Source of the DNA: an uncultured Erythrobacter sp.
GTDB taxonomy: Bacteria > Pseudomonadota > Alphaproteobacteria > Sphingomonadales > Sphingomonadaceae
NCBI GenBank assembly: GCA_913055155.1
Contig: CAJXJR010000010.1
Location: 1-64,000, forward strand
Length of the DNA stretch: 64,000 nucleotides
Direction: 5' to 3'
In this document: piece by piece, positions 15,235 to 46,516 of the stretch
How positions within the stretch are numbered: position 1 is the stretch's first letter
How the letters are laid out: each line of letters starts with the position of its first letter
Notes under the pieces: generated by a model
What the model was told of the DNA's origin: nothing
What the model saw: only the letters and a program-made list of their open reading frames with translations
Databases searched by the model: none
Translations under genes and position numbers: made by a program

Positions 15235-16395
15235 TCAGGATCCCCCTGCGAGCCAGGCGAGAATTTCCTCGCGGTCTTCATCCAGCCGCGGCGGCGCCTT
15301 GCTGGTTCCCGGCTGTCCCGGCTGCATGCGGAAACCGGCGTTGGGCACCCGCGTGCCGGCGCCGTCGGGCAGCCCTTCTATGTCAAGGTCGAGCAGCGCG
15401 CCCTCGCCAGCCAGTTCCACCGCTTCACCCACATGGCGGATCTTGCCGCAAGGGATGCCAGCGTCGCTCAGCTCGCGCTCCCAGTCCGCAGAATCGCGCG
15501 TGGCGAAAACTGCGGCGAGCTCGTTGTAGATGTCATCGAAATTGGCACGGCGCGCGTCGTTGGTGGAATAGCGCGCGTCCTCCAGCCACTCCGCCTTGCC
15601 AAGTATCGTGGCCAGCTTGGCAAACTGGTTTTCCTGCACCACGCCCAGCGAAATATGGCGTCCGTCGCCCGCCTCGAACAGGCCCGATGTCGGCAGCGCG
15701 CTGTAGCCGGTGTTGCCCAGCCGTTTCATCGTCTTGCCGGTAATCAGGTAGGGCGTCAGGGCCGAGGTCATGAAAGCCATGCTTGCATCGAGCATGGAAA
15801 CGTCGATCAGCGCGCCCTCGCCTGTCTGCATGCGCTGCACGAGTGCCCCGAGAATGGCAATGGCAGCTGTCTGCGCTGTCAGCGTATCGACGATGGGAAA
15901 GCCCACGCGCACCGGCGGATCGCCTTCAGCGCCGCTCAGCATCATCATGCCGCTGGTGGCCTGCACGATATTGTCGATGGCGGGCCAGTCGCGCTGCGGG
16001 CTGTCCTGGCCGTATCCCGATACCGAGCAGAAGATGATATCGGGCCGCAGCTTCTTCACCTCTTCATAGCCGAAGCCGAGGCGAGCGATCACGCCTGGGC
16101 GGAAGTTCTCGAGCAGCACGTCGCTGCGTTGCACGATCTTGCGGGCGATCTCCACGTCGGCAGGATCCTTCAGGTCGAGCGCAATGCTCTTCTTGCCGAC
16201 GTTGGCGGCGATGAAGGCAGGACTCATCCCGTCATAGGCGCGGTCAGCCCCGTAATTGCGGAAATGGTCGCCGTTCTTCGGCTCTATCTTGATGATTTCC
16301 GCGCCCATGAGCCGCATCAGGTGACTGGCGAAAGGGCCTGCCATGACATGGCTGAAATCGGCGACACGAATACCTTCGAGGGGCTGCTGACTCAC
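15235..16395 (-). CDS. CaiB/BaiF family CoA-transferase (start GTG at 16395 overlapping upstream stop)
   Basis: LEGIRVADFSHVMAGPFASHLMRLMGAEIIKIEPKNGDHFRNYG...IDNIVQATSGMM; candidate catalytic Asp in PIVDTLT. Confidence 0.9.
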   Translation of the reverse strand: MSQQPLEGIRVADFSHVMAGPFASHLMRLMGAEIIKIEPKNGDHFRNYGADRAYDGMSPAFIAANVGKKSIALDLKDPADVEIARKIVQRSDVLLENFRPGVIARLGFGYEEVKKLRPDIIFCSVSGYGQDSPQRDWPAIDNIVQATSGMMMLSGAEGDPPVRVGFPIVDTLTAQTAAIAILGALVQRMQTGEGALIDVSMLDASMAFMTSALTPYLITGKTMKRLGNTGYSALPTSGLFEAGDGRHISLGVVQENQFAKLATILGKAEWLEDARYSTNDARRANFDDIYNELAAVFATRDSADWERELSDAGIPCGKIRHVGEAVELAGEGALLDLDIEGLPDGAGTRVPNAGFRMQPGQPGTSKAPPRLDEDREEILAWLAGGS

Positions 16396-16396
16396 T

Positions 16397-17416
16397 TCAA
16401 ACTCCACATTCAACCTGGTTTCGCGCGACCAGGCTGTCGCGCGCAATCCGGAAAGCTTCCGTGCCGTCTATACCGAAGCGGGACAGGGCATTGGCCCTCT
16501 GTTCCGCCAGGCGAAGGTAGACGGCATCGAATTCGGCCTGGTCCCCTGCGCTGGGCCGGCTGACGGTTATCACGCCTTCGCCAGCGTCGCTTCCGGCTTC
16601 CGCCGCCGCTAGGTTTTCCGCCATGATCGCATCGTTCCACACCGCTATGCTCTCATCGATCACTGCCTGGTGCTGCGGGCTGAGGGCATCGAACACGTCC
16701 TGGTCTATGGCTCGGGCAGGATAGGCGCCGCGGGCGATCTGCAATTCGAAGAAATGGTCGGTGACTTCGGCGAAATGCATCGAGCGCAGCGTATCGCGCG
16801 ATGCCACCACCCCGTCGATCACGCCTTTTGCCAGCGCGCTGTAAACCTCGCCCATGGGCATATCGACCGGGTCCGCGCCGAACGAATGCAGCACCGGCAG
16901 CAGTTCGGACGGGGCACGGATGCGCAACCCATCAAGGTCTGCAAGACTATTCACCTCGCGCCCGCGTACCAGTATACCGGGCAGCACCCCGCCCTGCACG
17001 GCGAGCACTTTCAGCCCTTCCAGTTCGCGTGCGAACTGCGGCACCTGCGCCACCATGCAGCGGTAGAACTCCAGCTGCGCTTCCTGCGTATCGACCCCGC
17101 TGTAAAAGCCTGTTTGCGTGCGCAGCAGGTGCGCACCGCCGCGCGCATAGATCGGCGTGATCAGGCCGACATCGGCCACGCCGTGGCGGATCTCTTCCAT
17201 CGACATGTCGGCAGAGAGCAGCGCACCAGACCAGATCGGGCGGATCATCAACGTGCCGCCAGAGGCCTGCTCGACATAGTCGATCCAGCGCTGGTCGGCC
17301 CGGCTGAAGGGGTGGCCCGGGGGATAGGGGGAGGCATAGGTCAGTTCGGTCACGCCCTCGGGCAGCGGCCTTTCGCAGCCAGCCAGCAGCAGCAGGAGGG
17401 CGGCAAGCAGCCTCAT
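16397..17416 (-). CDS. TRAP transporter solute-binding protein (DctP family), lipoprotein-type signal
   Basis: MRLLAALLLLLAGCERP lipobox; SGALLSADMSMEEIRHGVADVGLITPIYA; SLADLDGLRIRAPS; PMGEVYSALAKGVIDGVV. Confidence 0.9.
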   Translation of the reverse strand: MRLLAALLLLLAGCERPLPEGVTELTYASPYPPGHPFSRADQRWIDYVEQASGGTLMIRPIWSGALLSADMSMEEIRHGVADVGLITPIYARGGAHLLRTQTGFYSGVDTQEAQLEFYRCMVAQVPQFARELEGLKVLAVQGGVLPGILVRGREVNSLADLDGLRIRAPSELLPVLHSFGADPVDMPMGEVYSALAKGVIDGVVASRDTLRSMHFAEVTDHFFELQIARGAYPARAIDQDVFDALSPQHQAVIDESIAVWNDAIMAENLAAAEAGSDAGEGVITVSRPSAGDQAEFDAVYLRLAEQRANALSRFGIDGTEAFRIARDSLVARNQVECGV

Positions 17417-18699
17417 CCGATCACCCGTTCCCGCACGAAGCCCTCCACCATGGCCACCATCCTGTCGTGGTCCCAGATGTTGGCGTTGACCATGTCGGCA
17501 TCGATCTTGAGCACCGGCACGCCCGCCTCTTCCAGAGCCAGTGCGGTGAGGTTGGTGCCCGATTGCGACAGGCGGTTGTCGGGCGGCAGCAGCATCACGC
17601 AACCGTCGATACCGCAGCGCTCTGCCTCCGATGTCATCCAGCCGTTCATCCACGGCGGCAGGTGCAGCTGTTCGTTGATGGCGCAGATGCGACTGGCCAG
17701 CGCATCCAGCGGCTTGTCCTTAAGGTCGCGCAGGTACGCAGGTCCGGCAAAGGGCATGTACATCGACCATACGAACACCGCGCCAAGGTTGTCCTCCAGC
17801 GCCTGGTAGAAGCCCGGATCGTGCCACACGCCCGCGCCGATCCACATCAGGCGAATCTTCTCGTTTTCCGATGCTCCCTCGCCCCGTTCGATCCGCTCCA
17901 GCACCTGGTCGCGGAACTTCTTGGCATGGGCCACCGCCCAGTCTGAGCCGCGGTGCCATTGCGGGATCATGGTGTTTGGCATCTGTTCGGCAATAGAGAT
18001 CGGGCTGGGCCGTGCCTTGCCGATGGCCTGGGCTGCCTCCCAGACATAGCCTTCCTGTTCATTGATCCGTTCCATCAGCCGTACGAATCTCGCCATGTCG
18101 AAGTCACGCCCGGTGCGTTCCTCCAGCAGTGCGATCAGTTCCTGTGTCTCGGCAGCCATGTGGGCGATCCGGTCCGGCTGGTAGACGCGCTCCCATTCAG
18201 TGCGGGAATGGGCATACCAGTCCAGCTCCTTGTGCTCCCATGCGGGTGCCTCCATCGCGAACAGTTCGCTGCCCAGTTCCTTCGCCCACATGCCGAACAC
18301 GTTCTGGATGCAGTCACAAGTAAGCCGCGCCACCATGATCGCCGGGCTGGGCAAGCCGCCCCATGGCGCGTTCTCAGGGTCATTCGCCAAGGTGCAGGCC
18401 AGACCCAGCGAGCAATACTTGCAGCCGTTGGAGGGATAGCCCTTGGCCACCATGGCATCGAAATACGCGCCCGAAAGCTGCTTTGCCGAGATGTAGGCAG
18501 ACCACCACTGGTTGGTGACGATGGGGATGTCCATCGCATGGAAAATCTCGTGCGGCACATCGGCCTGCACGATCGCATAGGGTTCCCTGTCATCAACGAC
18601 GCGCTTTTTCAGGCGCTTGCCGAACCCCTTCTGGTAGGCGGTGGCCTCGGCAGTGCAGGACAGCATCTTGCGGCTGCGCTGGTTGGCTGACCGGCTCAT
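17413..18699 (-). CDS. 2-hydroxyacyl-CoA dehydratase / benzoyl-CoA reductase family subunit (HgdB/BcrC-like), long subunit
   Basis: 428 aa: VPHEIFHAMDIPIVTNQWWSAYISAK...SNGCKYCSLGLACTLANDPENAPWGGLPSP...LTCDCIQNVFGMWAKELG...GVPVLKIDADMVNANIWD. Confidence 0.85.
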   Translation of the reverse strand: MSRSANQRSRKMLSCTAEATAYQKGFGKRLKKRVVDDREPYAIVQADVPHEIFHAMDIPIVTNQWWSAYISAKQLSGAYFDAMVAKGYPSNGCKYCSLGLACTLANDPENAPWGGLPSPAIMVARLTCDCIQNVFGMWAKELGSELFAMEAPAWEHKELDWYAHSRTEWERVYQPDRIAHMAAETQELIALLEERTGRDFDMARFVRLMERINEQEGYVWEAAQAIGKARPSPISIAEQMPNTMIPQWHRGSDWAVAHAKKFRDQVLERIERGEGASENEKIRLMWIGAGVWHDPGFYQALEDNLGAVFVWSMYMPFAGPAYLRDLKDKPLDALASRICAINEQLHLPPWMNGWMTSEAERCGIDGCVMLLPPDNRLSQSGTNLTALALEEAGVPVLKIDADMVNANIWDHDRMVAMVEGFVRERVIG

Positions 18700-19571
18700 C
18701 CCTGCACCTCCTTCAGGAATTCGGTGATTTCATCGATGGCACCATCGCGGGCCAGCCAGTCGCGGCGCGTCAGCACAAGGCCGGGGATTCCGGCGGCGTC
18801 GATGGCGGCGCGTTCGGCCGGGAGGTGCCAGCCCTGGTCCTCGTCCTCCTCCACGCGCCAAAGGATCACCGCCTTCGCTGCATGCTCCTTGATCACCCGG
18901 GTCAGCATTTCGCCACGATCGGCCATGCTGCGGCTGCTTGGCGCGTGGTGCAGCTTGCGGCCCAGCGCGGCAAAGGGATCGCCAGTGCCTTGCTCGACAT
19001 GCTCGCCCAAAGAAAGCCATTCCTCGACCACGGTCTGGCCAAGCGTGGCGAACCCCGTAGCGCCGATCGCATCACGCAGCCGGTGATCGGGCGCCGCAGT
19101 GCCCGACAGCACGCAGACCGGCCGCGGATCGTCAGCGACAGGCTCGGCCCGTTTCGCATTCGCCTTTGCGATTCCCGCTTCCAAAGCATCCTCGCCCACG
19201 CCCAGCCTTTCGCCCAGTTCGCGCAGTTTCATGATCGTGCGGTCACGGCTGAGTTCGCGCGGGATCTTGGCGATGTCGAGGATCATCGGTTCCGGGCCGG
19301 CGATAAGTCCGCGCCGCTGCAATTCGCAGGCATAGTAATACAGCCGCTGCGATGTGTCGTCGGCACGGCTGAACAACACCTGGTCGAGGTGATCGTATTC
19401 GCCCGCCGCCCAGGCTTCGATCACCGGGTGTGCCCACGGCAGGAACTTGTTCTCCACCCATTGCGAGGCAACCGGCGTCTCACGCTGCGGATCGAAGGGC
19501 ACGGCCCCGGCGAAGCGGCCGGTGGCTTCGAGCAATTCGAGTGGCAGGTTGGGTCCGGCAATTGCAATCAT
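18696..19571 (-). CDS. 2-hydroxyacyl-CoA dehydratase-family partner subunit, short (291 aa), cysteine-poor
   Basis: PLELLEATGRFAGAVPF...WAAGEYDHLDQVLFSRADDTSQRLYYYACELQRRG...DAAGIPGLVLTRRDW; 4-bp overlap with the long subunit. Confidence 0.78.
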   Translation of the reverse strand: MIAIAGPNLPLELLEATGRFAGAVPFDPQRETPVASQWVENKFLPWAHPVIEAWAAGEYDHLDQVLFSRADDTSQRLYYYACELQRRGLIAGPEPMILDIAKIPRELSRDRTIMKLRELGERLGVGEDALEAGIAKANAKRAEPVADDPRPVCVLSGTAAPDHRLRDAIGATGFATLGQTVVEEWLSLGEHVEQGTGDPFAALGRKLHHAPSSRSMADRGEMLTRVIKEHAAKAVILWRVEEDEDQGWHLPAERAAIDAAGIPGLVLTRRDWLARDGAIDEITEFLKEVQG

Positions 19572-19574
19572 GGG

Positions 19575-20882
19575 TCAGTTTCCAAGCACTTCGGGCAGCC
19601 ACAGGACCATGGCCGGGAACAGGATGATAAGCAGCAGGTGCACAAAATCGCTGGCCAGGAACGGCAGCACGCCGCGGAAGATATTCGTTATCGAGATATC
19701 CTTCGCCATGCCCTGCATGACGTAGAGATTGATGCCCAGCGGTGGGGTGAGGAACCCCACCTCCATCGCCCGCACGAGGAACACGCCGAACCAGATCGCC
19801 GTCATTCCCGTGCCTTCAACGATCGGCAGCAGGATCGGGGTCATCAGTAGCATCAGGCCTAGGCCGTCCAGCACCGTGCCGAGCAGCAGCAGGACGAAGC
19901 CGACCAGCACCAGGGTGAGGAACGGCCCCACTCCAAGGTCGTTGACGAAGGCGCCAGCCGCATCGGCCAGGCCGGTGACCCCGACGAAGACCGAAAAGAG
20001 CAGCGCGCCGATGATGATGAGGTAGATGAGACCGGTGGTGCGAAGCGTTTCGTGGAAGGCCGTGAACAGGCTTTCCGTGTTCAACTTGCCGCGCGCGGCG
20101 GCGATCAGCAGCGCGCCCGCAGACCCCACGGCTGCCGCTTCGGGCGGGCTGATCCAACCCAAGGCAATGCCGCCGATGACGAACCCGATCAGCGCCAGGA
20201 TTTCCCAGATCTTGCCCAGCGCCTTCCACCGCTCGCTCCACGGGGCGCGCTCGCCCGGTGGGGCAAGTTGAGGGCGCCAACGCACCAGCAGGAACACCAC
20301 CAGCACGTAAAGCAGTGCCTGCGTAAGGCCGGGAATGATGGCGCCGGTGAACAGTTGGCCGATCGATTGTTCGGCAATGATGCCATAGACGATCAGCGCG
20401 CCCGAGGGTGGGATCATCTGGCCCAGCGTGCCACCCGCGGCGATAGTGGCGGTCGATAGTTTGTCGTCATAACCGCGCCGCTTCATTTCCGGATAGGCGA
20501 CCAAGCCAACGGTCGCCGTGGTGGCAAGGCTCGATCCGTTGATCGCCCCGAATCCCCCGCAACCGGCAATACCGGCATATGCGAGCCCGCCCCGGCGATG
20601 GCCGAGAAACTTCGCAGCTGCATCGAACAGGTCGCGGCTCGCATCCACCGAGAAGAACACGTGCGCCATGAACAGGAACAGCGGCAGCGTGCCCAGTTCG
20701 TAGCGGGTGAGCGTGTCGACCACGACGACGCCGGCCTTGATGAGAGCGGCCTCCGGCCCGAGGATCAGTGCCAGACCGCCGAAGCCGGTAAGGCCGAGCA
20801 CGGCCCCGATGCGCCCGCCGGCCAGCAGCAGGGCGAACAGTACGACAATGCCGATCAGGCCGGTACCTGCGGTATCAATCAT
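19575..20882 (-). CDS. TRAP transporter large permease (DctM)
   Basis: GHRRGGLAYAGIAGCGGFGAINGSSLATTATVGLVAYPEMKRRGYDDKLSTATIAAGGTLGQMIPPSGALIVYG; start by 4-bp overlap with DctQ. Confidence 0.93.
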   Translation of the reverse strand: MIDTAGTGLIGIVVLFALLLAGGRIGAVLGLTGFGGLALILGPEAALIKAGVVVVDTLTRYELGTLPLFLFMAHVFFSVDASRDLFDAAAKFLGHRRGGLAYAGIAGCGGFGAINGSSLATTATVGLVAYPEMKRRGYDDKLSTATIAAGGTLGQMIPPSGALIVYGIIAEQSIGQLFTGAIIPGLTQALLYVLVVFLLVRWRPQLAPPGERAPWSERWKALGKIWEILALIGFVIGGIALGWISPPEAAAVGSAGALLIAAARGKLNTESLFTAFHETLRTTGLIYLIIIGALLFSVFVGVTGLADAAGAFVNDLGVGPFLTLVLVGFVLLLLGTVLDGLGLMLLMTPILLPIVEGTGMTAIWFGVFLVRAMEVGFLTPPLGINLYVMQGMAKDISITNIFRGVLPFLASDFVHLLLIILFPAMVLWLPEVLGN

Positions 20883-21331
20883 TCGCCCGCCTTCCGAAAC
20901 AAGCGGACCAGCAGGTATCCGCAAGTCAGCAGCAGCGCGGCGTTGACCACCAGCCGCAGGTAACGCCACGGCACGCCCAGCACTTCGCTGACCTCGTGCG
21001 AAGCCCACAGGTCGGCGGCAATCCAGGCAGAGCCGATCAGCAAGGACAGGGCAAAGACCAGGGTCAGCGCATCGGAAAACCTGTCCGCGACCTTGCGCCA
21101 GCCAGGCGAAAGCCGATCGACCAGCAGGACGACGCGGGCGTGGGTATTGGCCACCGTGGCGATGACCAGGCCAACCGACCCGGAGACTACGACAGCAGCC
21201 TGCATCAGTTCGATCGAACCGGTCAGCGGCAAGCCGACATAGCGACCGATCACGGCAAGCGTATCGATCGCGGTGGCGGCGAGCAATGCGATGCCGCCGA
21301 TCCAGATGGCGAGTTTCATGGATCGAGTCAT
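20879..21331 (-). CDS. TRAP transporter small permease (DctQ)
   Basis: 150 aa, 4 TM; YVGLPLTGSIELMQAAVVVSGSVGLVIATVANTHARVVLLVDRL. Confidence 0.88.
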   Translation of the reverse strand: MTRSMKLAIWIGGIALLAATAIDTLAVIGRYVGLPLTGSIELMQAAVVVSGSVGLVIATVANTHARVVLLVDRLSPGWRKVADRFSDALTLVFALSLLIGSAWIAADLWASHEVSEVLGVPWRYLRLVVNAALLLTCGYLLVRLFRKAGE

Positions 21332-22437
21332 GCCGCTGCCTGCACCTTGCCATCTGCGGCAATGGTAATCGGCGGCAAGCCTGCTGCCTGCGTTATGCTC
21401 TCCAGGTAATCGGCGATTTCCCGCCCGCGCTGCGCAGTAGCCAGCACCGGGCGCCCCGGAGCCTCCACATGCACCGGCACGATGGCGGCGGTCGGCGGGC
21501 GGCCCTTGCGCAGCACGAGCTGGCCGATGAAGGCATTGATTGCTTCGGGGTGAAAAGGTGCGAGCCTATAGGCTGGGTCCGGTTCGAAACCGAACAGTTC
21601 CTTGCGCCGCCGGGCCCATTCTTTTCGGGCGGGGTGATCCTGGTCGGGTGAAAGCGCACTTGTCACCACGCAGCCGTTGCCAAGGCCGTGGAAGATCGGT
21701 CGCTCGCGATGGAACTCGATCCCGCGCACGATATGCGCGTGGTGCGAGATAACGGTGTCGGCTCCGCAATCGATAGCGGCACGGGCAACCTCCCGCTCGT
21801 AATCCGCGACGAAGGCCGGTGTATGCACCCTGCCCTTGTGCAGCGCAACGATCACGTGGTCGGCATCCGCACGCGCAGCGGCAATGCCGGCCTGCAGGAT
21901 GGCTCGCGTCTCCGGCGTGATGCCGGTAAAGTCGAACAGCGGTGTGACCGGTCCATCCTCCTCAGCTGTCAGGGGCAGCCATGCACAACCGGCGCGGTCT
22001 TCGCCAGCCCAGCTCAGTTCGGGGCCAACGCAATTGTAGCTGAGCAGGGCAATCGACTGGCCACCAATCCTTGCGACCGCATGTCGGCTGGCCTGCGCCA
22101 GATCCTTGCCTGCTCCTGCATGGAGAATGCCCAGCCGATCAAGCTCGGCAGTCGTGTCGGCAATGCCCTGCGCACCGCAATCGGCAATATGGTTACCGGC
22201 CAGGCTGAGCATGCCGAAACCCGCTTCCGCCAGCGCGGCGAGGTTTTCCAGCGGCGCGCCGGGAGCGGGAACGTCGCCTTCGACCTCGAATGCGCTGTCG
22301 GTATGCGGGACCTCGAGATGTCCGATAGTGAAATCGGCTTTCCGAAGAGCGGGTGCGATCCCCGCAAGCCAGTAACCGGGATCGGGTTCATCGAGAACCA
22401 GATCCCCGGTTACGGCCACGGTGATCACATCCGCCAT
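21328..22437 (-). CDS. CapA-family (PGA_cap) metallophosphatase-fold protein, no evident signal peptide
   Basis: VAVTGDLVLDEPDP...IGHLEVPHTD...LSLAGNHIADCGAQGI...ISHHAHIVRGIEF. Confidence 0.85.
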   Translation of the reverse strand: MADVITVAVTGDLVLDEPDPGYWLAGIAPALRKADFTIGHLEVPHTDSAFEVEGDVPAPGAPLENLAALAEAGFGMLSLAGNHIADCGAQGIADTTAELDRLGILHAGAGKDLAQASRHAVARIGGQSIALLSYNCVGPELSWAGEDRAGCAWLPLTAEEDGPVTPLFDFTGITPETRAILQAGIAAARADADHVIVALHKGRVHTPAFVADYEREVARAAIDCGADTVISHHAHIVRGIEFHRERPIFHGLGNGCVVTSALSPDQDHPARKEWARRRKELFGFEPDPAYRLAPFHPEAINAFIGQLVLRKGRPPTAAIVPVHVEAPGRPVLATAQRGREIADYLESITQAAGLPPITIAADGKVQAAA

Positions 22438-22462
22438 GGCTCGGAAAACCTCCGTCGGTCGA

Positions 22463-25138
22463 TCAGAAGCGGACGCGCGCCCCGACAGCGAACTGACGGC
22501 CGATCGGGCTGGCAGCCGAACCATCGTAACCGCCGAAGCCGTTCGCGGACGGCGCCAGGTTCACGAAGGGCGGATCGGTGTCGAACAGGTTGATCGCTTC
22601 AAGCGTCAGTTCCAGACCTTCCATCGGCAGGCTCGGCACGCTTTCCGCGACACGCCAGGTGACCGTGAGATCGACCGGGGTGTAGGAGTCCACCTGCTCC
22701 GGCGTGGCGATGGCATCGTTGGTGTAGCCACCGACATGCGTCACCAGCACGCGGGTGCTGAACGGACCGTGATCCCAGTTGGCGATGAAGCGAGCGCGGA
22801 ACTCCAGCGGATCGAAGATCGTGTTGAGCTGGTCGATCAGCGGAGCGCCCTGAACCACGGCCGTCTTGTAGTCGGTCAGGTAGGTGCCGTTCAGCGCCAG
22901 GCGCAGCGTGTCGTTGGGGCCAAGATCGGTCCACCACGTCACGTTGAAGTCGATGCCTTTCATCTGCGACGACCCCAGGTTCAGCTGGCGACCGTCGACG
23001 AACAGATCGACATTATCCAGACTGCCGCCCGGATACGGGCGGAACAGCGGAGTGCTGTTCACCCCTTGGGCGACGAGCTCCGCAATACGATCGCGGGCAG
23101 CCTGACCACGCAGGATGATGCCGGTCCCATCGTACAACGCCGCGTCCGAAAGGATCGTCAGGTTCGAAAGCAGGGCATTGACCTGGTTGGTGTACTCGAT
23201 GTCGAAGTAGGTCAGCGAGATCGTCAGGCTGTCGGTCGGCTCGATATCGACACCGGCAGTCCAGGTCGTGCTTTCTTCAGGCGAAAGCTGAAGGTTCGGC
23301 CCCGACAGCGTGACGCCGTAAATCGGCGCGCCACCTGCGGGATCCTGATACAGCTGACCATAGTTCGTCAGACGACCGGTGTTGCCATAGATTTCGGTGA
23401 AGCCCGGCGCACGGAAGGCCGTGCCGTAGGTACCGCGCAGGGTCAGGAAATCGGTGACTTCCCAATCCACGCCGAATTGCGGGTTGGTGGTGTTGCCAAC
23501 GTCGCTGTACTTGTCGTGGCGGATGGCCGCCGTCACATCTAGACCGTCGATCACTGGCAGCAGGATTTCACCGTAGAACGAGTCGACCGAACGGTCATAG
23601 ACGAAGCCACGGCGCGCACCGGTGGCGGGGCCACGGATGCTGCCCAGGTCCAGTTCGAACTCCTGGCGTTCATAGCCCACAGCAACCATGACGTCGCCAC
23701 CCGGCAGGGCAAACAGCGGACCGTTTGCGCCTGCTTCGTAGACGGTCAACTGACCAGCGGTATCGGTGATGAACACGTCACCGAAGATGCTGTCCATGGT
23801 CGCATCGCTGGTGCGATAGAGGCCATAGGGATCGAAGGCCGTGGCCGGATCGCTGCTGGCCAGCGCGGCAGCAAGGCCACCGCGGCTGAGGTTGCCGATG
23901 TCGCGCGACATCTCGTCGGTTTCACCGTAGCTGAGCTGCGCTTCCACTTCCCAATCGAAGGGCAGACGCAAACGCAGACCCGGCGAAACCTGCCAGATCT
24001 CGTAATAGCCCGTACCCGGCTGCTGACCGCGCGGATCGCCCGCGAAGTTGTACTCGATGTTGTAGCTGGTGCCGGTAAAGCCCGGCGGACGCACGAAAAA
24101 GGCGTTGGTTTCGGGCACGGTCAGCGTTGTTGCCACGCCCGGACGCTGACGCACGAATTCGCGCCGCGAATAGAAGCCGTCGGCGAAGAATTCGAAATTG
24201 TCGGTAAACTCGAACGTCGCCGTAGCGTTGACGTTGTCATAGGTCTGCGACGGGAACAGGTCCTGTCCGATCTGGCTGTCGCACAGGTTGGCGGTGTTCG
24301 GCACCAGCGAACCTGCATTGGACTGCTGGTAGATCGCCGGCAGCGCATAGCTGACACCATCAATGATGGCTGTGCCCGGATCGCAGGCGGTGACGCGATA
24401 GTCGTTGCCGCCAAACGGCGTCAGGTCATTGGTGTAGAAGTCACGGTCAAGGCCGTTCAGGTTCGAACGGTCGACGTGTTCATAGGCGATCATCACCTGG
24501 CCGCGGTCAAATACCACGCCCGCAGCGATGCCCGCCGTCCACTGGTCGAAGGCACCATCATCGGAGATGTTGTAGCGCGCGCTCGCCTCGATACCGTCAA
24601 GGCTGCGGCGCGGGATCAGGTTGACCACGCCGGCGATTGCATCCGAACCGTAGATGGCCGAGGCGCCGTTGGCGACGACTTCCACGCGCTCGAGGCCCAG
24701 GGTCGGCAGGCCCGACGGGTCGACCGAGCGACCGTTGCTGACAACGCGGTGACCGTCGACGAGGACGAGCGTTGCATAGGGACCGATACCGCGCAGGTTG
24801 ACGGCGTTACCGTACACGATGTTGCCGGCGCCGCCGCTCTGCGAACGCGAGCTGTCCGTCACGCCCAGGTTGAAGACCTGCGGCAGCTCCTTGACCAGCT
24901 GATCGACCGTGGTGGCCGCCGATGCCGCGATTTCTTCGCGACCAAGCACGGTGGCCGTCGCCCCGACCGGGGCATCGCCCGTACTCACGCGACTGCCGGT
25001 AACAACGATTGCCGGCTGGTCATCACCCTCATCAGCGTCCTGCGCCATAGCCACGCCAGGCACGCACAGCGTTGCCAGCGACACGCCCGCAAGAAGGGAT
25101 TTGCCGGAAATATGACGGAAAAAGCCTTTGGTCTGCAC
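22463..25138 (-). CDS. TonB-dependent outer-membrane receptor
   Basis: Signal peptide, TonB box/plug (AIVVTGSRVSTGDAPVGATATVLGREEIAASAATTVDQLVKELPQVF), terminal beta strand GRQFAVGARVRF. Confidence 0.95.
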   Translation of the reverse strand: MQTKGFFRHISGKSLLAGVSLATLCVPGVAMAQDADEGDDQPAIVVTGSRVSTGDAPVGATATVLGREEIAASAATTVDQLVKELPQVFNLGVTDSSRSQSGGAGNIVYGNAVNLRGIGPYATLVLVDGHRVVSNGRSVDPSGLPTLGLERVEVVANGASAIYGSDAIAGVVNLIPRRSLDGIEASARYNISDDGAFDQWTAGIAAGVVFDRGQVMIAYEHVDRSNLNGLDRDFYTNDLTPFGGNDYRVTACDPGTAIIDGVSYALPAIYQQSNAGSLVPNTANLCDSQIGQDLFPSQTYDNVNATATFEFTDNFEFFADGFYSRREFVRQRPGVATTLTVPETNAFFVRPPGFTGTSYNIEYNFAGDPRGQQPGTGYYEIWQVSPGLRLRLPFDWEVEAQLSYGETDEMSRDIGNLSRGGLAAALASSDPATAFDPYGLYRTSDATMDSIFGDVFITDTAGQLTVYEAGANGPLFALPGGDVMVAVGYERQEFELDLGSIRGPATGARRGFVYDRSVDSFYGEILLPVIDGLDVTAAIRHDKYSDVGNTTNPQFGVDWEVTDFLTLRGTYGTAFRAPGFTEIYGNTGRLTNYGQLYQDPAGGAPIYGVTLSGPNLQLSPEESTTWTAGVDIEPTDSLTISLTYFDIEYTNQVNALLSNLTILSDAALYDGTGIILRGQAARDRIAELVAQGVNSTPLFRPYPGGSLDNVDLFVDGRQLNLGSSQMKGIDFNVTWWTDLGPNDTLRLALNGTYLTDYKTAVVQGAPLIDQLNTIFDPLEFRARFIANWDHGPFSTRVLVTHVGGYTNDAIATPEQVDSYTPVDLTVTWRVAESVPSLPMEGLELTLEAINLFDTDPPFVNLAPSANGFGGYDGSAASPIGRQFAVGARVRF

Positions 25139-25283: not shown

Positions 25284-25961
25284 ATGAAACCAAGTGAACA
25301 GTCGGTGCCCCTGCAAAATGCCAGCACAGGCGAAATAGCGGACTGGATTCGCGCGCAAATACGCGCCAACCGCATGGTGCCCGGCCAGCGCCTCGTCGAA
25401 GCCGACCTGATCCGCCAGACCGGAAGCAGCCGCTTCAAGGTCCGCGAAGCGCTCCAACGCCTTGCCGCGGAGGGCCTGGTCGTGATCGAGGAATTCCGTG
25501 GCGCATCGGTGCGCGAAGCCTCGATGGAAGAGATCCACCAGCTCTACCGTGCCCGCGCCGCGCTGGAGGGAATGTGTACCGCGGATTTCGTCCGGCTCGC
25601 CACACCGCAGGAGAAGCAGCGCCTTTACGACCTTGCCGACGAGATCGAGGCCTGCATCGACGAAGACCTGTCGGAGGAATTCGGCACCCTAAACAACCGC
25701 TGGCACCGCCAGATCATGCAGGTCTCCGGCAACACCGTCCTGGCCGCGCTGGTGACACGGCTGCATACGCCGGTTCAAAGGCTGCAATTTGCCAACTTCT
25801 ATCGCGGCGATCGCCTGAGCAGCGCGGTGGAGGATCACCGCGCTATCGTGGCAGCCATAAAGAAGGGCGATGCCGAGGCGGCCGAAGCGGCCATGCGCCA
25901 GCATATCGAAAACGGCCTGCGTTACCTGACCGCGGTCGACAAGGCCGTTCGTAACGACTAG
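25284..25961 (+). CDS. GntR-family (FCD subfamily) transcriptional regulator
   Basis: ADWIRAQIRANRMVPGQRLVEADLIRQTGSSRFKVREALQRLAAEGLVVIEEFRGASVREASMEEIHQLYRARAALEG. ORF also open from 25197. Confidence 0.92.
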   Translation: MKPSEQSVPLQNASTGEIADWIRAQIRANRMVPGQRLVEADLIRQTGSSRFKVREALQRLAAEGLVVIEEFRGASVREASMEEIHQLYRARAALEGMCTADFVRLATPQEKQRLYDLADEIEACIDEDLSEEFGTLNNRWHRQIMQVSGNTVLAALVTRLHTPVQRLQFANFYRGDRLSSAVEDHRAIVAAIKKGDAEAAEAAMRQHIENGLRYLTAVDKAVRND

Positions 25962-26968: not shown

Positions 26969-28714
26969 TCAGTCGACCGGGATCACCGGAAGCGAGATCG
27001 ACGAGGCCCGCTCGCCCCCCGTCAACACGGCAATATCGCCATCCGCCCCGCCGGGGTTGGCGAAGCTGATCACCAGCCGTACGCGATGCCCTGCAGGGAA
27101 ATTGTACGACATCGGCAGCATGGCGAATTCCAGTTCTGCCGGAGTTCCCGGAACCAGCGGTCGGATATCGGCTTCGCGGTGAGTGTGGAAGGGCAAGCCA
27201 AGGTTGTTGTAGGGCGCTTCTCCCTGCTGGCGGTGCGAGGCGCGCAGGCGACCGACCATCTCGTAAGTCCGGGTGGATCCATCAGGCGCCACATCGAGCA
27301 GCTGCGCCGTGGCGTCGACATCGGCGGTCTCGGCTTCGATCCACAGGTTGACGACCGGATAGCCGGTCACCTGCATGTCCTGTTCCAGCGGCTCCGTTTC
27401 GAACACCAAGCCGCCTTCGGGCGGTTCGATGGTGACCGAGGTCACCACGGGCGCTGCGCCGGTCTGTGTCACCACCTGCCCGCCAGCGGGTGCGGACATT
27501 GACAGGCTGCCATCCGACAGGAAGTAGGTGGTGCGTTGCTCGTTCGCCAAGGGCCAGTTGTTGGCCTGCTGCCACTCGCGGCCCTCCGGCGCGTTGTAGG
27601 TGTAGTAGGTGACGGCAGGCTCATCCATCACCCCATTGTCGATGCCCTTCAACCAGTAGTCGAAGAAGCGCAGTTGTTCGGTCGTGATGGAAAGGCCCGT
27701 TTCCTCTTCCACCACATTCCAGCGGCAGTGTTCGGCCGGGCCATAGATCAGCTTGCCGCGCCCTTCGGGCATGTTGGCAAACATCAGCCCGGGTGCGATC
27801 TTGGTGCCCGCCTCGTCCCAGTTGCCGCCGCTGTAGACTGCAACGCCCGAGGCCTCGACCTCGTCGTGGTAGGTATACATGCTTGACCGGCCCCACCAGT
27901 CGCCCAGCGCCTCGCTCACGCTGTCGCGATAGGGCAGTTCGCCCGAGCGGATGCTGGCAGGATCATCGATATGCTCGGCCTTGGCCTGTTCCAGCAGCGC
28001 TTCGCCGTCCGGCCCGTCCACGGGGGAGGCTGCCACGTCGCGTTCGGCGGAAGTCACCGGGTCGTAGGGGGCGATCGACGGAATGCCGCCGAAGTTGACG
28101 AAATCGTAGGTGTCGTAGGCCGGGCTGAGCGCCATGATGGCTTTCAACGAGGGGGGCTGCGTCACCATTGCCTGGTGCTGGCTGCCCCCCGTCGCGGAAC
28201 ATCCCCACATGCCGATATTGCCGTTACTCCAAGGCTGCTCGGCCAGCCATTCGGTGATGTCATAGGCATCGGTCCAGGCGGGTTCCAGGAAGTTGCCGAA
28301 GTTGAACAACCGGTTCTGCCCGAACGACGCGTAGAGGCCGCGAAAGTCGGCAACAGCCACGACATAGCCGTGCTCCACCAGTTCGATCGGCCCGCTGGGA
28401 TAGGTGATGGCGGCGCTTTCTTCCCCGCGCGCACGGCGGTTGTAGGGCGTATGCATCCATACGACCGGCAGCGGGTCTTGCACCACTTCACCGTTCATCG
28501 TGGGACGGATGATGTCCACGGCCAGCCGCGTGCCATCGCGAACCGGAACGTAAAGCGATGACAGTTCCCAGCCATCGTAAAGCACCGGCGAGTAGCCTTC
28601 ATACTCGCCGGGACCGGAGACACGGCCATCCTCTGCAGGGCTGGTGCAGGATGCAAGTGTCATGCCGATGGTGGCCAGTGCCGCCAGTGCGGTTCCCAGT
28701 GTCGAACGCATCAT
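26969..28714 (-). CDS. CocE/NonD family hydrolase, predicted lipoprotein
   Basis: MMRSTLGTALAALATIGMTLASCTSP lipobox; LYVPVRDGTRLAVDIIRP...GMWGCSATGGSQHQAM. Confidence 0.9.
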   Translation of the reverse strand: MMRSTLGTALAALATIGMTLASCTSPAEDGRVSGPGEYEGYSPVLYDGWELSSLYVPVRDGTRLAVDIIRPTMNGEVVQDPLPVVWMHTPYNRRARGEESAAITYPSGPIELVEHGYVVAVADFRGLYASFGQNRLFNFGNFLEPAWTDAYDITEWLAEQPWSNGNIGMWGCSATGGSQHQAMVTQPPSLKAIMALSPAYDTYDFVNFGGIPSIAPYDPVTSAERDVAASPVDGPDGEALLEQAKAEHIDDPASIRSGELPYRDSVSEALGDWWGRSSMYTYHDEVEASGVAVYSGGNWDEAGTKIAPGLMFANMPEGRGKLIYGPAEHCRWNVVEEETGLSITTEQLRFFDYWLKGIDNGVMDEPAVTYYTYNAPEGREWQQANNWPLANEQRTTYFLSDGSLSMSAPAGGQVVTQTGAAPVVTSVTIEPPEGGLVFETEPLEQDMQVTGYPVVNLWIEAETADVDATAQLLDVAPDGSTRTYEMVGRLRASHRQQGEAPYNNLGLPFHTHREADIRPLVPGTPAELEFAMLPMSYNFPAGHRVRLVISFANPGGADGDIAVLTGGERASSISLPVIPVD

Positions 28715-28779
28715 TTTCCCCTCCACTATTTCAAGACTTCGGCGCCACCTGACATTTCGGCAGCGCGGGTGCCGTGCTC

Positions 28780-30330
28780 CTATTCCGCAGCTTCTGCCGC
28801 GGGCTCGACTTCCACCGCTTCTGCCGGAACATGCGAGACGACGATCGCAGGCACGATATAGTCGCCAACGAGTTCCCACGGCTCGGTGTTGGTCGAGGTG
28901 ACCACCACCACGATATTTTCGTCCGGGATCACCGCGATCAACTGGCCCAGCGCGCCGATTGCCATGTAGGCATCGGCCCCCAGGAAGCGCGGTCCTTCCT
29001 CGGCATCATTGAGGTGCCAGTAGAAGCCGTACGCGTAGTCCCCGGCGGCAGTCTGCCGGCGAGTCGATTCCTGCACCCATTCTTCGGAAACAATACGCCG
29101 CCCCTGCCATGTGCCGCCATCCAGCATCATCTGGCCGATCCGCGCGAAGTCCACCGGGCGGATAAAGAACCCGCCCGCCGCATTGGGGGAACCGTCGGCA
29201 AAGTAGGTCCAGCGGACATTCTCGATACCCAGCGGGCGGAGCAGGTGGTCCTCGGCATACCGGTCGTAGGGAACGCCGGTCACTTCCTCCACCAGCTGCG
29301 CTGCCAGGACAGGCAGGCCGTTGTCGTAGTTGTAGTGCAGTGCCGGGGCATGCTCGAGCGGCTGGCTGAACATGAAGTCGACAACGTCCGGCGCGGTGCC
29401 CAGGTCCGCCGGATTGGGAATATGCGCGCCCGATGTCATCGACAGCATCTGTCGCACGGAAACCGGATAGTGCCCGCGCGCCCACATGCTGCCAGCCTGT
29501 TCGGGGAAATAGCTGGTGACCGTGCGATCCAGCTCAAAAGCGTCGTTGTCCCACGCGATGCCCGCCACGGTGGCGGTAATGCTCTTTACCACGGACCATG
29601 TCTGGTGCGCGTCCTCGGGTCCGTTGCCCCAGAAATATTCGGCCAGCACCAGCTTGCCCTCTCGCAGAACCAGTACGCTTTCGGTCTTCGACATGGGCGA
29701 TTGCTGCAGGATGGAATTTACCATCGCCTCCAGCTGAGCCCGGTCCAGCCCGGCCTGTTCTGGGGTTACGCTGACGAAGGTGCCGGTGCCATCCACCGGC
29801 AGGCGATAGGTATAGCTGGTTACCGGCTCGCCCTGCCCGTCAACGCGCGCATGGCGAAAGGCGCTTTCCGCGACCGTGTCCCCTTGTGTCAGCGTTGCCT
29901 GGCGCACGTCCTCGATCCGGCCCGAAAGGCCGGCAGCCCTCGTGATGGCGGCAATGCTTTCGCCGTCGGCGGACAAGGTGCCTTCGACCTGCGCACGGAT
30001 CACGCGGCTGGAGCCGAGCGTGATGGCGGTTTCAAAGGCGAAGTCGCGACCGTCTAGCGCAACGGGATATGCGGTGTCGCCGGGCAGCGCGTGATCGACC
30101 GCCACCAGCGTGCCGTCTTCCGCCTCGCGAAACTCGATGTCGATCAGCGAAGGCAGGCGCACATCGGTGTCCTGGATCAGGCCCACGCCGCTCCATCGCC
30201 CCGCCAGTTCGGCAGCGACCGATGCCGGCGCGGCAGCCTCTTGAGCTTGCGATGCCGCCTGCGGAACGACGGCGAGCGGCACGGCCAGCATCAGTGCTGC
30301 GGCGGTTTGGAAAGTCCACTTTTTCGGCAT
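28780..30330 (-). CDS. Exported serine hydrolase, beta-lactamase/class C-like family
   Basis: Signal peptide; TWSVVKSITATVAGIAW (SxxK), LHYNYDNGLPVLAAQLVEEVTG. Confidence 0.88.
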   Translation of the reverse strand: MPKKWTFQTAAALMLAVPLAVVPQAASQAQEAAAPASVAAELAGRWSGVGLIQDTDVRLPSLIDIEFREAEDGTLVAVDHALPGDTAYPVALDGRDFAFETAITLGSSRVIRAQVEGTLSADGESIAAITRAAGLSGRIEDVRQATLTQGDTVAESAFRHARVDGQGEPVTSYTYRLPVDGTGTFVSVTPEQAGLDRAQLEAMVNSILQQSPMSKTESVLVLREGKLVLAEYFWGNGPEDAHQTWSVVKSITATVAGIAWDNDAFELDRTVTSYFPEQAGSMWARGHYPVSVRQMLSMTSGAHIPNPADLGTAPDVVDFMFSQPLEHAPALHYNYDNGLPVLAAQLVEEVTGVPYDRYAEDHLLRPLGIENVRWTYFADGSPNAAGGFFIRPVDFARIGQMMLDGGTWQGRRIVSEEWVQESTRRQTAAGDYAYGFYWHLNDAEEGPRFLGADAYMAIGALGQLIAVIPDENIVVVVTSTNTEPWELVGDYIVPAIVVSHVPAEAVEVEPAAEAAE

Positions 30331-30360
30331 GCGACAAGGTTCCCGTGAATGCTCGGCTTG

Positions 30361-31815
30361 CTACCCGCCTAGCGGCTCGCGCCGGGCCTGAGCCAGGTAG
30401 GCAGCGACCTGATAGTGATCGATATAGCCACCCGCCTCTGCGGCATGGGTCGCTTCGGTCACGCTGGCGACATAGTCCGCGCGCGTCGGATAGAGTTCGC
30501 GCAGCCGCTCTGCGGAGAACGGCTCGGTCGAACCGCGCAGTCCTGCGGTGGCATTCAACCCCTGGATGGCCGCGGTGTACCTTGCTGTCGGAACTTCCAT
30601 CTCGGGCAGGCGCACGCCGCCACGGGCATTGCCGTATTCGTCTCGCACAACCTGTGGGCGACCGTCTGCCATTTCGATTTCGATGAACTCGGCCCGCGGC
30701 GGCTGCGTGCCCCGCATCATCCAGCCAACCATGTGCTGCAGTGCCGCGTCAGAACTCGGCTCCCACATCACCCGGCTGCCGTATTCAAGATCGTCGCCCG
30801 TCAGCCCGTCCCGTTCGCGCAAGCGCGCAAGGTAGGCGTCGAAAGCCTGTGGTACGTGCGAGGCGCCTGCCACCTCCCAGTACCGGAAACGATCCGTATC
30901 GGGCTGGCGGCTGCGGTAGTACATCAGCGCCTCTGTCTCGGAATTGACGGCGAACACCGGTACATCGAGATCGTCGCGAAAGCGGCTGGGGATGAAGACC
31001 CGGTCGGGCGATGGCGTGCCGGCACTGGGATCGAGCACGCCGTCTCCGAAGCCGAAGCCCAGGCCGAAACCGATCGTCGGATGATAGCCGTCGAATACCC
31101 TTGCGATCGGATGCACGGCATTGATGTAGGAAAGAAGCCGTCCGGCTGACTGCGAAGCGCCGGTGGCTATGATCTTGCGGACGTCGAGCCCTTGCCACGG
31201 GTCGATACCATCGCGCGGACGCTGCGGGCCGAGCGCACGGCCCGCCTGGCTCAGGATGTCGTACGACAGGCCGTCACCGGGAATGGATAGCGTGCCGTAG
31301 CGTTCCGGATCCCAAGCCCTCAGCGCCTGCGGGGCGACCTGCGTGCCGTGCACGCCAACCTGCTGGCAAGTGACGAATGCCAGCGCGAAACCTTCATTGT
31401 AAAGCGCATCCGACAGCTGCCCGATTGTGGAGGTGTCATAGCCTGCCGTGACATTCAGCCATTCCAGGATCACGACGCCGTTGAACCTGGCCGGATCGAC
31501 AGGGCGGCGGATCAGCATGCGCGTCTTGTAAGGAGAGCTTTCACCCGGCTCGACAGTCCACTTGCCGTCGGGTGTAGTCTCGCCAATGGGGCGGTAGCGC
31601 GTTGCCGTGCCTTCCAGGAAGTATTCCTCCTCGACATAGCCCAGATCGCAGATGTCGCCCAGGCAGGCGGTAAACGGATGGCCGCGCCAACCACCGGTGA
31701 CCGGGCCGGTCACTGTCGGCACGTGGTGCGCTGCCATTGCCGGTGCGATGCCGCCCATAGCTGAAATACCTGCGCTCACCGCGATCCCTTCCAGTACGTT
31801 GCGCCTGCTGACCAT
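30361..31815 (-). CDS. Alpha/beta-hydrolase domain protein, Tat-type signal
   Basis: MVSRRNVLEGIAVSAGISAMGGIAPAMAAH; KIIATGASQSAGRLLSYINAVHP (GxSxSxG). Confidence 0.82.
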   Translation of the reverse strand: MVSRRNVLEGIAVSAGISAMGGIAPAMAAHHVPTVTGPVTGGWRGHPFTACLGDICDLGYVEEEYFLEGTATRYRPIGETTPDGKWTVEPGESSPYKTRMLIRRPVDPARFNGVVILEWLNVTAGYDTSTIGQLSDALYNEGFALAFVTCQQVGVHGTQVAPQALRAWDPERYGTLSIPGDGLSYDILSQAGRALGPQRPRDGIDPWQGLDVRKIIATGASQSAGRLLSYINAVHPIARVFDGYHPTIGFGLGFGFGDGVLDPSAGTPSPDRVFIPSRFRDDLDVPVFAVNSETEALMYYRSRQPDTDRFRYWEVAGASHVPQAFDAYLARLRERDGLTGDDLEYGSRVMWEPSSDAALQHMVGWMMRGTQPPRAEFIEIEMADGRPQVVRDEYGNARGGVRLPEMEVPTARYTAAIQGLNATAGLRGSTEPFSAERLRELYPTRADYVASVTEATHAAEAGGYIDHYQVAAYLAQARREPLGG

Positions 31816-31846
31816 GACACTTGCTCCCTTCACCTGTCGCTACGGA

Positions 31847-34759: not shown

Positions 34760-34769
34760 GGAAAAAGAC

Positions 34770-44135: not shown

Positions 44136-45383
44136 CTAGTCGACCTTGCCGAACACGCCCTGTTCGCGCAGCCGTTCGAAATCCCCGGCGCTGAAACCCA
44201 GCATCTCGCGGCAGATCATCTCGGTGTGCTCGCCCAATCCGGGCGCGGGGAACATGCGCCCTGGCGTCTTCGTCAGTTCGACGGGCGTGCGCTCGTGATC
44301 GAAGGTGCCGATCACCTTGTGCTCCACGGGCCGGAAATGACGGCGATGGGCGATCTGCGGATCGCGGTCCATCACGTCCGCAATATGTTGCACGGCGCCG
44401 GCGGGCACGCCTGCCGCCTGCAGTTCCATCATCGTGTCGTAGCGATCCCGCACGCGGGTGTAATCGGCAACGATTGCCTCCAGTTCGTCCTCGTTAGCCT
44501 TGCGTGCGGCCAAGGTGGCGAAGCGTTCGTCGCGCGCCAGCTCGGGCCGGTCCATCATCTGGCACAGGCTGGCGAACTGCGCGTCGGTCTCCACCGCGAT
44601 CGCAATCCACATGTCCTCGCCGCTGGCCGGAAAAACGCCATGCGGGCTCATCCGGGGGGAGCGGTTGCCGGTGCGCGGAAGGCGCTCGTCCTCGCCCGCA
44701 TCGCGGCGGTGCTGCGCTTCCAGGATATAGGGCAGCATCTGCTGGCCCAGCGCCTCCACCATGGCAGCGTCGATGCGGCAGCCCTCACCCGTCCGGTCAC
44801 GGTTTTCCAGCGCTGCGATCACGGCGGTCGCCAGCAGGAAAGGCGTTACGCTGTCGCCATAGGTAAGCCCTGGCAGGTTCGGCGGACGATCCGCTTCGCC
44901 GGTCATGAACACGCGGCCCGACCAGGCGCTGCCGCTGACTTCGGAACCGCCTAGCGAGCCGAGCGGCCCGGTCTGGCCGAAAATGCTGCCGCTGGCCATG
45001 ATGATCGAAGGCTTGCGCGCCCGCAGCGCGTCCCAGCCGACGCCCAGCTTGTCCATCGTGCCCGGCGAGAAGTTTTCCAGCACCAGATCCGCCCAGTCGA
45101 TGATGGCATCCACCACCTCGCGCGAGGCAGGGTTGCGCATGTCCAGCGTCAGGCTGAACTTGGAGGTGGCGAGGTTGGCGAACCACGGATTGTCGTTAGG
45201 CGGCGCAACGGGAACGTTCTTCACCGGGCGCGACATGCGTTCCAGGCTGGCGCGGCCGGGGTTTTCGATCTTGAGCATGTCGGCGCCCAGGTCGCCCAGC
45301 ATCTTGGCGCAGGTGTTGCCCACCACTGCCCAAGAGAAATCCATCACCTTTACGCCGGCGAGCGGAAGCTTGCTGTCGCTCAT
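44136..45383 (-). CDS. CaiB/BaiF family CoA-transferase (pair partner A)
   Basis: LPLAGVKVMDFSWAVVGNTCAKMLGDLGADMLKIENPGRASLERM; GLTYGDSVTPF; GEGCRIDAAMVEAL. Confidence 0.92.
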   Translation of the reverse strand: MSDSKLPLAGVKVMDFSWAVVGNTCAKMLGDLGADMLKIENPGRASLERMSRPVKNVPVAPPNDNPWFANLATSKFSLTLDMRNPASREVVDAIIDWADLVLENFSPGTMDKLGVGWDALRARKPSIIMASGSIFGQTGPLGSLGGSEVSGSAWSGRVFMTGEADRPPNLPGLTYGDSVTPFLLATAVIAALENRDRTGEGCRIDAAMVEALGQQMLPYILEAQHRRDAGEDERLPRTGNRSPRMSPHGVFPASGEDMWIAIAVETDAQFASLCQMMDRPELARDERFATLAARKANEDELEAIVADYTRVRDRYDTMMELQAAGVPAGAVQHIADVMDRDPQIAHRRHFRPVEHKVIGTFDHERTPVELTKTPGRMFPAPGLGEHTEMICREMLGFSAGDFERLREQGVFGKVD

Positions 45384-46516
45384 CGCACCTCTCCTTCGCT
45401 GGCGATTGCTGCGATATCGGCAAGGCTGCTGACTGCCACCGGCGCACCCGGCAGGTTGACGCGGGTCTGGTCCATCTTGTCGGTCTTCACAAAGAATTCG
45501 GGAAACACCGAAGGCCCGTCTCCCTCGCGCTTCTGCAGGAAGCCGCGATCGGCCAGATGTTCGTCATCCAGTAGGTGGCGCGGTTCGTTCACCGGCAGAA
45601 TACCGGTGTCGATAGTCAGGGCCTTTTCGATCACTTCTTCGCGCTCGCGCGTTTCGAGGAAATCCGAAAGCGCTGGCAGCCACTTCGCCACAAGCTCAGG
45701 GTCAGGCCGGAAGGGGTTGGCCTCCACCCCCTCGATCGGGTTGGGGAAGCCCTCTTCCTTCATCCACATGGCTGCCGCCTTCTGCCCTGGCGAGCCCGGC
45801 GCCATCAGCGATGCGACCGCATGGCCTTCCTTAAGGTCCCAGATGCCGCGCGTGGGACCGCGCCCGGAATCCATCATGATGCCGATGCGGCCGCGCTCGT
45901 TCTTGTCGAACTGATATTGCATGGAAGAAATGGTGTTGCGGATCTGCGCGACTTCCTGGGCGGATACGTCTACCTGCTGTCCCTCTCCGGTCAGCCGCGC
46001 ATGTCGCAGGGCAGCCATACCGCCCGCTGCCGCCACCATGGCTGCGTGGTAGAACAACGCATCGCCCGCTTCCTTGACCGGTGCCCGGTCGGGATAACCG
46101 CTCATCGAGAGCGAACCGCTCATCGCCGAAACCACCAGTTCGCTGCCCAGCAAATTGGCGTAGGGGCCGGTCTGGCCGAACGGGGTTATAGACACGGTGA
46201 CAAGCCGCGGGTTCGCGGCAAGCAGCGCCTCATGGCCCAAGCCAAGTTCGTCCATGTGCCCCGGCGTGAAGCTTTCGATCACCATTGCGCTGCCCGCGAT
46301 CAGTTCGCGCAGCAGCGGCAGGCCATCGCCTTCGTAGTCTATGGCAACGCAATGCTTGTCCGCCTGACCGATCGACCAGTCCTCGCCAGTGTCCGCGCCG
46401 GGCAGGTCCACCCGGATCACCTCGGCACCAAGCGAGGCGAGGAAACGACCGCAATCCCACCCCTCGCGCGTGGTCAGATCGACGATGCGCACCGATTCCA
46501 GAAGCGTGCTTTTCAT
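45380..46516 (-). CDS. CaiB/BaiF family CoA-transferase (pair partner B)
   Basis: VRIVDLTTREGWDCGRFLASLGAEVIRVDLPGADTGEDW...VSITPFGQTGPYANLLGSELVVSAMSG; 4-bp overlap with 44136-45383. Confidence 0.9.
   Translation of the reverse strand: MKSTLLESVRIVDLTTREGWDCGRFLASLGAEVIRVDLPGADTGEDWSIGQADKHCVAIDYEGDGLPLLRELIAGSAMVIESFTPGHMDELGLGHEALLAANPRLVTVSITPFGQTGPYANLLGSELVVSAMSGSLSMSGYPDRAPVKEAGDALFYHAAMVAAAGGMAALRHARLTGEGQQVDVSAQEVAQIRNTISSMQYQFDKNERGRIGIMMDSGRGPTRGIWDLKEGHAVASLMAPGSPGQKAAAMWMKEEGFPNPIEGVEANPFRPDPELVAKWLPALSDFLETREREEVIEKALTIDTGILPVNEPRHLLDDEHLADRGFLQKREGDGPSVFPEFFVKTDKMDQTRVNLPGAPVAVSSLADIAAIASEGEVR

Follow-up and report, generated by a model that had tools for sequence, protein, structure and literature searches.

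A TRAP transporter operon with a conserved HAD/BCR-fold subunit pair that appears to work without archerase-driven radical chemistry

The window, the first 64 kb of the 144-kb contig C10 of an uncultured Erythrobacter sp. (3.1-Mb genome, 21 contigs, rated 100% complete), carries an operon of eight genes, all on the minus strand, in the order TonB receptor, CapA-like, DctQ, DctM, HgdS, HgdL, DctP and CaiB. HgdS and HgdL (together HgdSL) show the HAD/BCR fold and are encoded between the permeases and the binding protein of a TRAP transporter. With somewhat better than even confidence, the operon serves the uptake and the coenzyme A (CoA)-dependent, non-radical processing of an organic acid via HgdSL. 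More broadly, and here the balance is about even, HgdSL represents a widespread alpha- and gammaproteobacterial family of this fold that has abandoned archerase-driven radicals, in some clades apparently with no cluster cysteines, for a new polar reaction on a CoA thioester, the genes TRAP-CapA-tandem CaiB-HgdSL-CaiB forming a dedicated route.

HgdS (18696..19571, minus strand), the small beta-like subunit of 291 amino acids (aa), reaches a PF06050 score of 25.5 bits, which is below the cut-off of 28.4. Profile searches match it to BzdN (6.8e-27) and HadC (4.3e-23), and its AlphaFold2 (AF2) model (pLDDT 96) gives a Foldseek match to 3o3n_B; the fold places HgdS with HadC and BzdN. HgdL (17413..18699, minus strand), the large alpha-like subunit of 428 aa, is a clear PF06050 member (172.8 bits, 1.9e-50). 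Its AF2 model (pLDDT 90) matches BzdO, MbdO and HadB in Foldseek and the profile search gives the same grouping. Thus both methods relate the pair to HadBC, BzdNO and MbdNO, that is, to the two-subunit HGD-D fold. The HAD/BCR fold is known from enzymes that serve as models of extreme radical chemistry, sensitive to oxygen and dependent on an ATP-driven electron gun.

The crystal structure of BzdNO shows the catalytic cluster held by BzdO Cys95, Cys128 and Cys380, with Tyr97 and Tyr298 binding the thioester and holding its carbonyl (PMC11971306). The same paper names the other ligands and catalysts mapped here, BzdO Glu65 and His131 and six cluster cysteines of BzdN (PMC11971306). Positions were transferred from BzdO and BzdN to HgdL and HgdS by sequence-profile alignments at approximately 19% identity. 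BzdO Cys95, Cys128 and Cys380 align with C93, C128 and R376 of HgdL. His131 corresponds to I131, and Glu65 to Q64, an equivalence taken via HadB and MbdO as BzdO itself is unaligned at that position. Both thioester-binding tyrosines are kept, as Y95 (39/41 sequences) and Y314 (41/41). The remaining HgdL counts refer to 67 core and 12 outgroup sequences; R376 is present in 67/67 and 11/12 of these, respectively. The core clade therefore has two of the three cysteine ligands of the alpha-subunit [4Fe-4S] cluster, and a Devosia-type sister clade has none. The beta-subunit [4Fe-4S]/[8Fe-9S] relay is absent as well, with 0/6 BzdN cluster-cysteine positions being Cys in HgdS. HgdL residues H249, R250, E280, R283 and R376 and many tryptophans are strongly conserved down to approximately 47% identity.

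A search of the window's genome showed no PF01869 protein (archerase/BcrAD-type ATPase). All 34 operon-carrying genomes have PF06050, and PF01869 scores over the cut-off in only nine; it does so in none of the other 25, and in the nine it is never beside the operon. Among 301 sampled genomes of the same order, a PF01869 gene lies 30–80 base pairs (bp) away in 8/8 genomes with canonical high-scoring PF06050 pairs vs. an adjacent one in 0/13 genomes with window-type HgdB (Fisher p = 5e-6, the genomes being related and their relatedness uncorrected). Of the arguments against the classical mechanism, this contrast weighs most. With no beta relay, no third cluster ligand and no adjacent archerase, HgdSL would therefore work without ATP-driven radical chemistry. 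The initial annotation had proposed radical reduction or dehydration by the HgdB pair, a proposal that does not survive the missing archerase, the missing relay cysteines and the arginine in place of the third alpha ligand. Its label of an archerase-like pair is also wrong, as the archerase is the ATPase partner and not the HgdB subunits.

The genes around HgdSL form a tightly packed unit. As read from the DNA, ATGA overlaps of 4 bp join CapA to DctQ, DctQ to DctM, HgdS to HgdL and HgdL to DctP; DctM and HgdS are 3 bp apart and the TonB receptor and CapA 25 bp. The DNA and the Pfam and NCBIfam families bear out the eight genes, strand, order and tight junctions of the initial annotation. Its layout holds but two of its starts shift: DctM starts at 20882, and CaiB, with candidate start codons ATG (16407) and GTG (16395) on either side of the DctP stop, probably starts at 16407 rather than at the GTG.

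All three parts of a TRAP transporter are encoded together. DctM, the large permease (19575..20882, minus strand, 435 aa), is assigned by PF06808. DctQ, the small permease (20879..21331, minus strand), gives only a weak NCBIfam YiaM match and is recognized in addition by its position, 4-bp overlaps and synteny. DctP, the binding protein (16397..17416, minus strand; PF03480, 3.3e-24), starts at 17416 with a lipoprotein-type signal whose lipobox reads LLAGC, and the lipobox pattern is found in 57/60 relatives. Its Arg165 and Arg167 are conserved and belong to the RxRxP arginine region, which we take to be the region that binds carboxylates in the TRAP binding-protein family. CaiB (15235..16407, minus strand; PF02515, 2.9e-108) shows the CoA_transf_3 fold of class III CoA-transferases, with the catalytic Asp145 in 66/72 aligned sequences and all exceptions in the outgroup. 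The nearest NCBIfam families of CaiB are mostly dicarboxylate CoA-transferases, although its scores fall well short of each equivalog cut-off. The CapA-like protein of 369 aa (21328..22437, minus strand; PF09587, 1.2e-51) belongs to the PGA_cap/CapA metallophosphatase-like family and has conserved putative metal-site residues D12, N82, H83, H200, H232, H233 and H235 (54 sequences). Two more CapA-like genes, approximately 33% identical, are found in the same catabolic region at 56106-57038 and 62386-63510 of the window, both on the plus strand, which suggests a recurring role of CapA-like proteins in such pathways. The TonB-dependent receptor (22463..25138, minus strand, 891 aa) carries PF07715 and PF00593.

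Relatives of HgdL were scanned in one genome per species, giving 325 confirmed stretches of which the best 80 were retrieved. Synteny was counted in 45 core-clade loci with full flanks and HgdL at least 61% identical, the core clade comprising Aurantiacibacter, Novosphingobium, Altererythrobacter, Croceibacterium, Sphingobium, Asticcacaulis, Sphingosinicella, Steroidobacter and unclassified gammaproteobacteria. DctQ, DctM, HgdS, HgdL and DctP occur together in 45/45 of these alpha- and gammaproteobacterial loci. Because this core is always kept, the operon is more than a chance adjacency of its genes, an explanation that the synteny rules out. A downstream CaiB is present in 43/45, CapA upstream of DctQ in 41/45, the TonB receptor in 33/45 and a GntR gene in 22/45. 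In the window a divergent GntR-type gene (25374..25961, plus strand) is 62.6% identical to the GntR beside the operon of relative locus L013 and is likely the regulator of the operon. A second arrangement of similar parts (HgdS-HgdL, several CaiB, DctP, DctM) is found in Devosia, Aquamicrobium, Nitratireductor and their relatives, and some other relatives show HgdL followed by CapA and CaiB. The initial annotation had named this neighbourhood analysis as what could refute an operon from uptake to activation. The HgdB pair is conserved with the TRAP, CapA and CaiB genes, which favours a single unit, and the carboxylate-type binding protein and the catalytic aspartate of CaiB agree with import followed by activation. 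A narrow search of the open-access literature for HAD/HgdB-type genes with TRAP, CaiB, TonB, cytochrome P450 or sphingomonads did not find the operon, in line with the earlier remark that the gene set is not recognized as a described pathway.

The relatives add a gene to this set. Between HgdS and HgdL, each of the 45 well-flanked loci encodes a fused tandem CaiB CoA-transferase as a ninth gene. Its length is 694–727 aa in the four loci whose sequence was read completely; it overlaps HgdL and usually HgdS, and shows a GVDGTG motif in 49/49 sequences. The tandem CaiB is absent from the window operon, and an orthologue was not found elsewhere in the 21-contig assembly. A frameshift or gene remnant was rejected as the explanation: no residue of the gene is present at the site (18696..18699, minus strand), where HgdS and HgdL meet in a clean ATGA like that of the other junctions. 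The window therefore carries the operon in a reduced and atypical form. A split CaiB pair of 415 and 378 aa (44136..46516, minus strand), the best match in its own genome and 42–44% identical by blastp to the two halves of the L013 tandem CaiB, is the nearest candidate substitute. Further split pairs paralogous to tandem CaiB lie at 49829-51978 of the window and at C10 105493-107540, both on the minus strand. The second halves of the split pairs share 42–44% identity with tandem CaiB across their length, rising to as much as 50% in shorter segments; these pairs might, but need not, take its place.

From the families of its members, the favoured route would run as follows. The TonB receptor would carry the compound across the outer membrane and DctPQM would import it as a carboxylate. 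CaiB would transfer CoA onto the acid, normally alongside the second, tandem CaiB that is lost here, and the HgdS-HgdL heterodimer would then convert the resulting thioester, with the CapA-like protein acting before or after these steps. The conversion would be polar chemistry at the thioester, i.e. hydration, dehydration, isomerisation, decarboxylation or C-C cleavage, with no ATP-driven radicals. Arg376 would occupy the former place of a cluster ligand, perhaps to grip a second acidic group on a substrate that is a dicarboxylic mono-CoA thioester. HgdSL thus probably does new, oxygen-tolerant chemistry. Several points weigh against this account. The substrate and reaction of HgdSL are guesses and the pairing of HgdS with HgdL is an assumption. 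A PF01869 search would miss an activator from some other, unrelated ATPase family. The window operon, with its tandem CaiB gone, could be degenerate or rewired. Finally, the near-invariance of C93, C96, C102, C128 and C130 in the core clade indicates that a metal or Fe-S site probably persists in HgdL, and this site could be catalytic, either through Lewis acidity or by drawing on a different electron donor.

The last point leads to the alternative that deserves most weight, a possible though distinctly less probable one, in which HgdSL is still an Fe-S enzyme. C93, C96, C128 and C130 would hold a rebuilt [4Fe-4S] cluster in the N-terminal domain, acting as an aconitase-like Lewis acid or with an unlinked donor. 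The HgdL cysteines are arranged as C93xxC96, C102 and C128xC130; C93, C96, C102 and C128 are cysteine in 67/67 core sequences and C130 in 66/67, and C93 and C128 align with real cluster ligands of BzdO. The presence of C96, C102 and C130 beside the two kept ligands suggests, from the sequences, a remodelled metal site in the core clade. However, in the sister clade (Devosia, Aquamicrobium, Nitratireductor and others) all these cysteines are replaced together, and H249, R250 and R376 remain, the single exception for R376 being in the outgroup. The chemistry shared by the two clades therefore needs none of the cysteines. The loss of the beta-subunit relay also argues against this alternative.

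It is improbable that HgdSL is a non-catalytic partner of the CoA-transferases that binds and channels CoA thioesters, e.g. by passing on the ester made by tandem CaiB. In the relatives tandem CaiB is encoded exactly between HgdS and HgdL, and the redox residues are eroded with the fold and thioester tyrosines retained, as such a role would have it. However, the conserved H249, R250, E280, R283, R376 and tryptophans look like an active site, and the window copy retains HgdSL though tandem CaiB is absent. Very improbable, and rejected on the missing ligands and archerase, is a classical ATP-dependent radical dehydratase or reductase of the Had/Fld/BCR type with its archerase encoded elsewhere: the fold is the same and, from family knowledge, a CaiB-type CoA-transferase with two dehydratase subunits is as in Had/Fld, but the genome has no PF01869 gene, neither the third alpha ligand nor any beta ligand is left, and adjacency is 0/13 against 8/8 for canonical pairs.

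The rest of C10 gives the setting in which non-radical processing by HgdSL would take place. The contig carries two HcaE-like ring-hydroxylating dioxygenases, two BphC-like extradiol dioxygenases, a BphD/HsaD-like hydrolase, several P450s and several esterases, and a ligase that is presumably feruloyl-CoA-synthase-like, as assigned from family knowledge of PRK12582. This content hints at aromatic catabolism and names no substrate for the operon; the oxygenases and the absence of an archerase fit oxygen-dependent catabolism. That a large clade has shed the cluster ligands and activator but retained the fold and the tyrosines that hold the substrate suggests reuse of the scaffold for another purpose in bacteria whose catabolism is rich in oxygenases. 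The operon recurs among genomes and its parts should express easily; for the catabolic route that it indicates, the narrow literature search gave no description.

There are five HgdB-type pairs on C10, the operon pair included. The other four, which the initial annotation of the gene set had overlooked, as it had the tandem CaiB of the relatives, are found at 33605-36110 of the window (plus strand) and at C10 72119-74513, 101170-103571 and 110214-112597. They are cysteine-poor, approximately 20–34% identical to the operon pair, and none has the full set of Fe-S ligand cysteines. The beta-like paralogues at C10 72119-73285 and 101170-102324 show three cysteine motifs, LCDN/MCDN, EDHCWGAR and PACS. 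These resemble BzdN Cys36, Cys263 and Cys293; the other three BzdN cysteines have no counterpart, as if half of a double-cubane site were present.

Just upstream of the operon, at 26969-32719 of the window (minus strand), are four esterase-type hydrolases in a row (CocE/S15-like, beta-lactamase-like, Abhydrolase_10 and PETase-like). In many relatives, too, the operon has S15-like and small alpha/beta hydrolases as neighbours. A two-gene cassette recurs at C10 79667-81996, 84762-87046, 90490-92777 and 112604-114867. It consists of a protein of approximately 500 aa, with a weak cytochrome-c-like match where scanned, and a protein of 230–270 aa with an FxxCP start and no Pfam family. The same cassette is found beside the operon in relatives, e.g. 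at L017:17218-19640.

HadBC is the (R)-2-hydroxyisocaproyl-CoA dehydratase and FldBC the phenyllactyl-CoA dehydratase. Like HadBC/HadA and FldBC/FldA, the operon encodes two PF06050-fold subunits with a CaiB-type CoA-transferase. Unlike HadBC-HadI and FldBC-FldI, where the last member is the archerase, it has no activator gene and no beta cluster ligands, and an arginine takes the place of the third alpha ligand; it differs further in its TRAP, CapA and TonB partners and in the oxygenase-rich catabolism of its host. With the class I benzoyl-CoA reductases BzdNO and MbdNO it shares the fold and the two thioester-binding tyrosines (Y95, Y314). However, HgdL has Q64, I131 and R376, the six double-cubane cysteines of BzdN have no counterpart, and there is no BzdPQ-type ATPase. 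The DctPQM genes supply all three parts of a TRAP transporter and DctP keeps the RxRxP region, but two enzyme genes lie between permease and binding protein, and the binding protein looks lipid-anchored. CaiB has the fold and catalytic aspartate of the class III CoA-transferases of succinate-glutarate, oxalate and mesaconate types, but its scores are far below the cut-offs and the usual operon adds a fused tandem form. Thus HgdSL is built on a known scaffold, but lacks the features that define the HAD/BCR radical enzymes.

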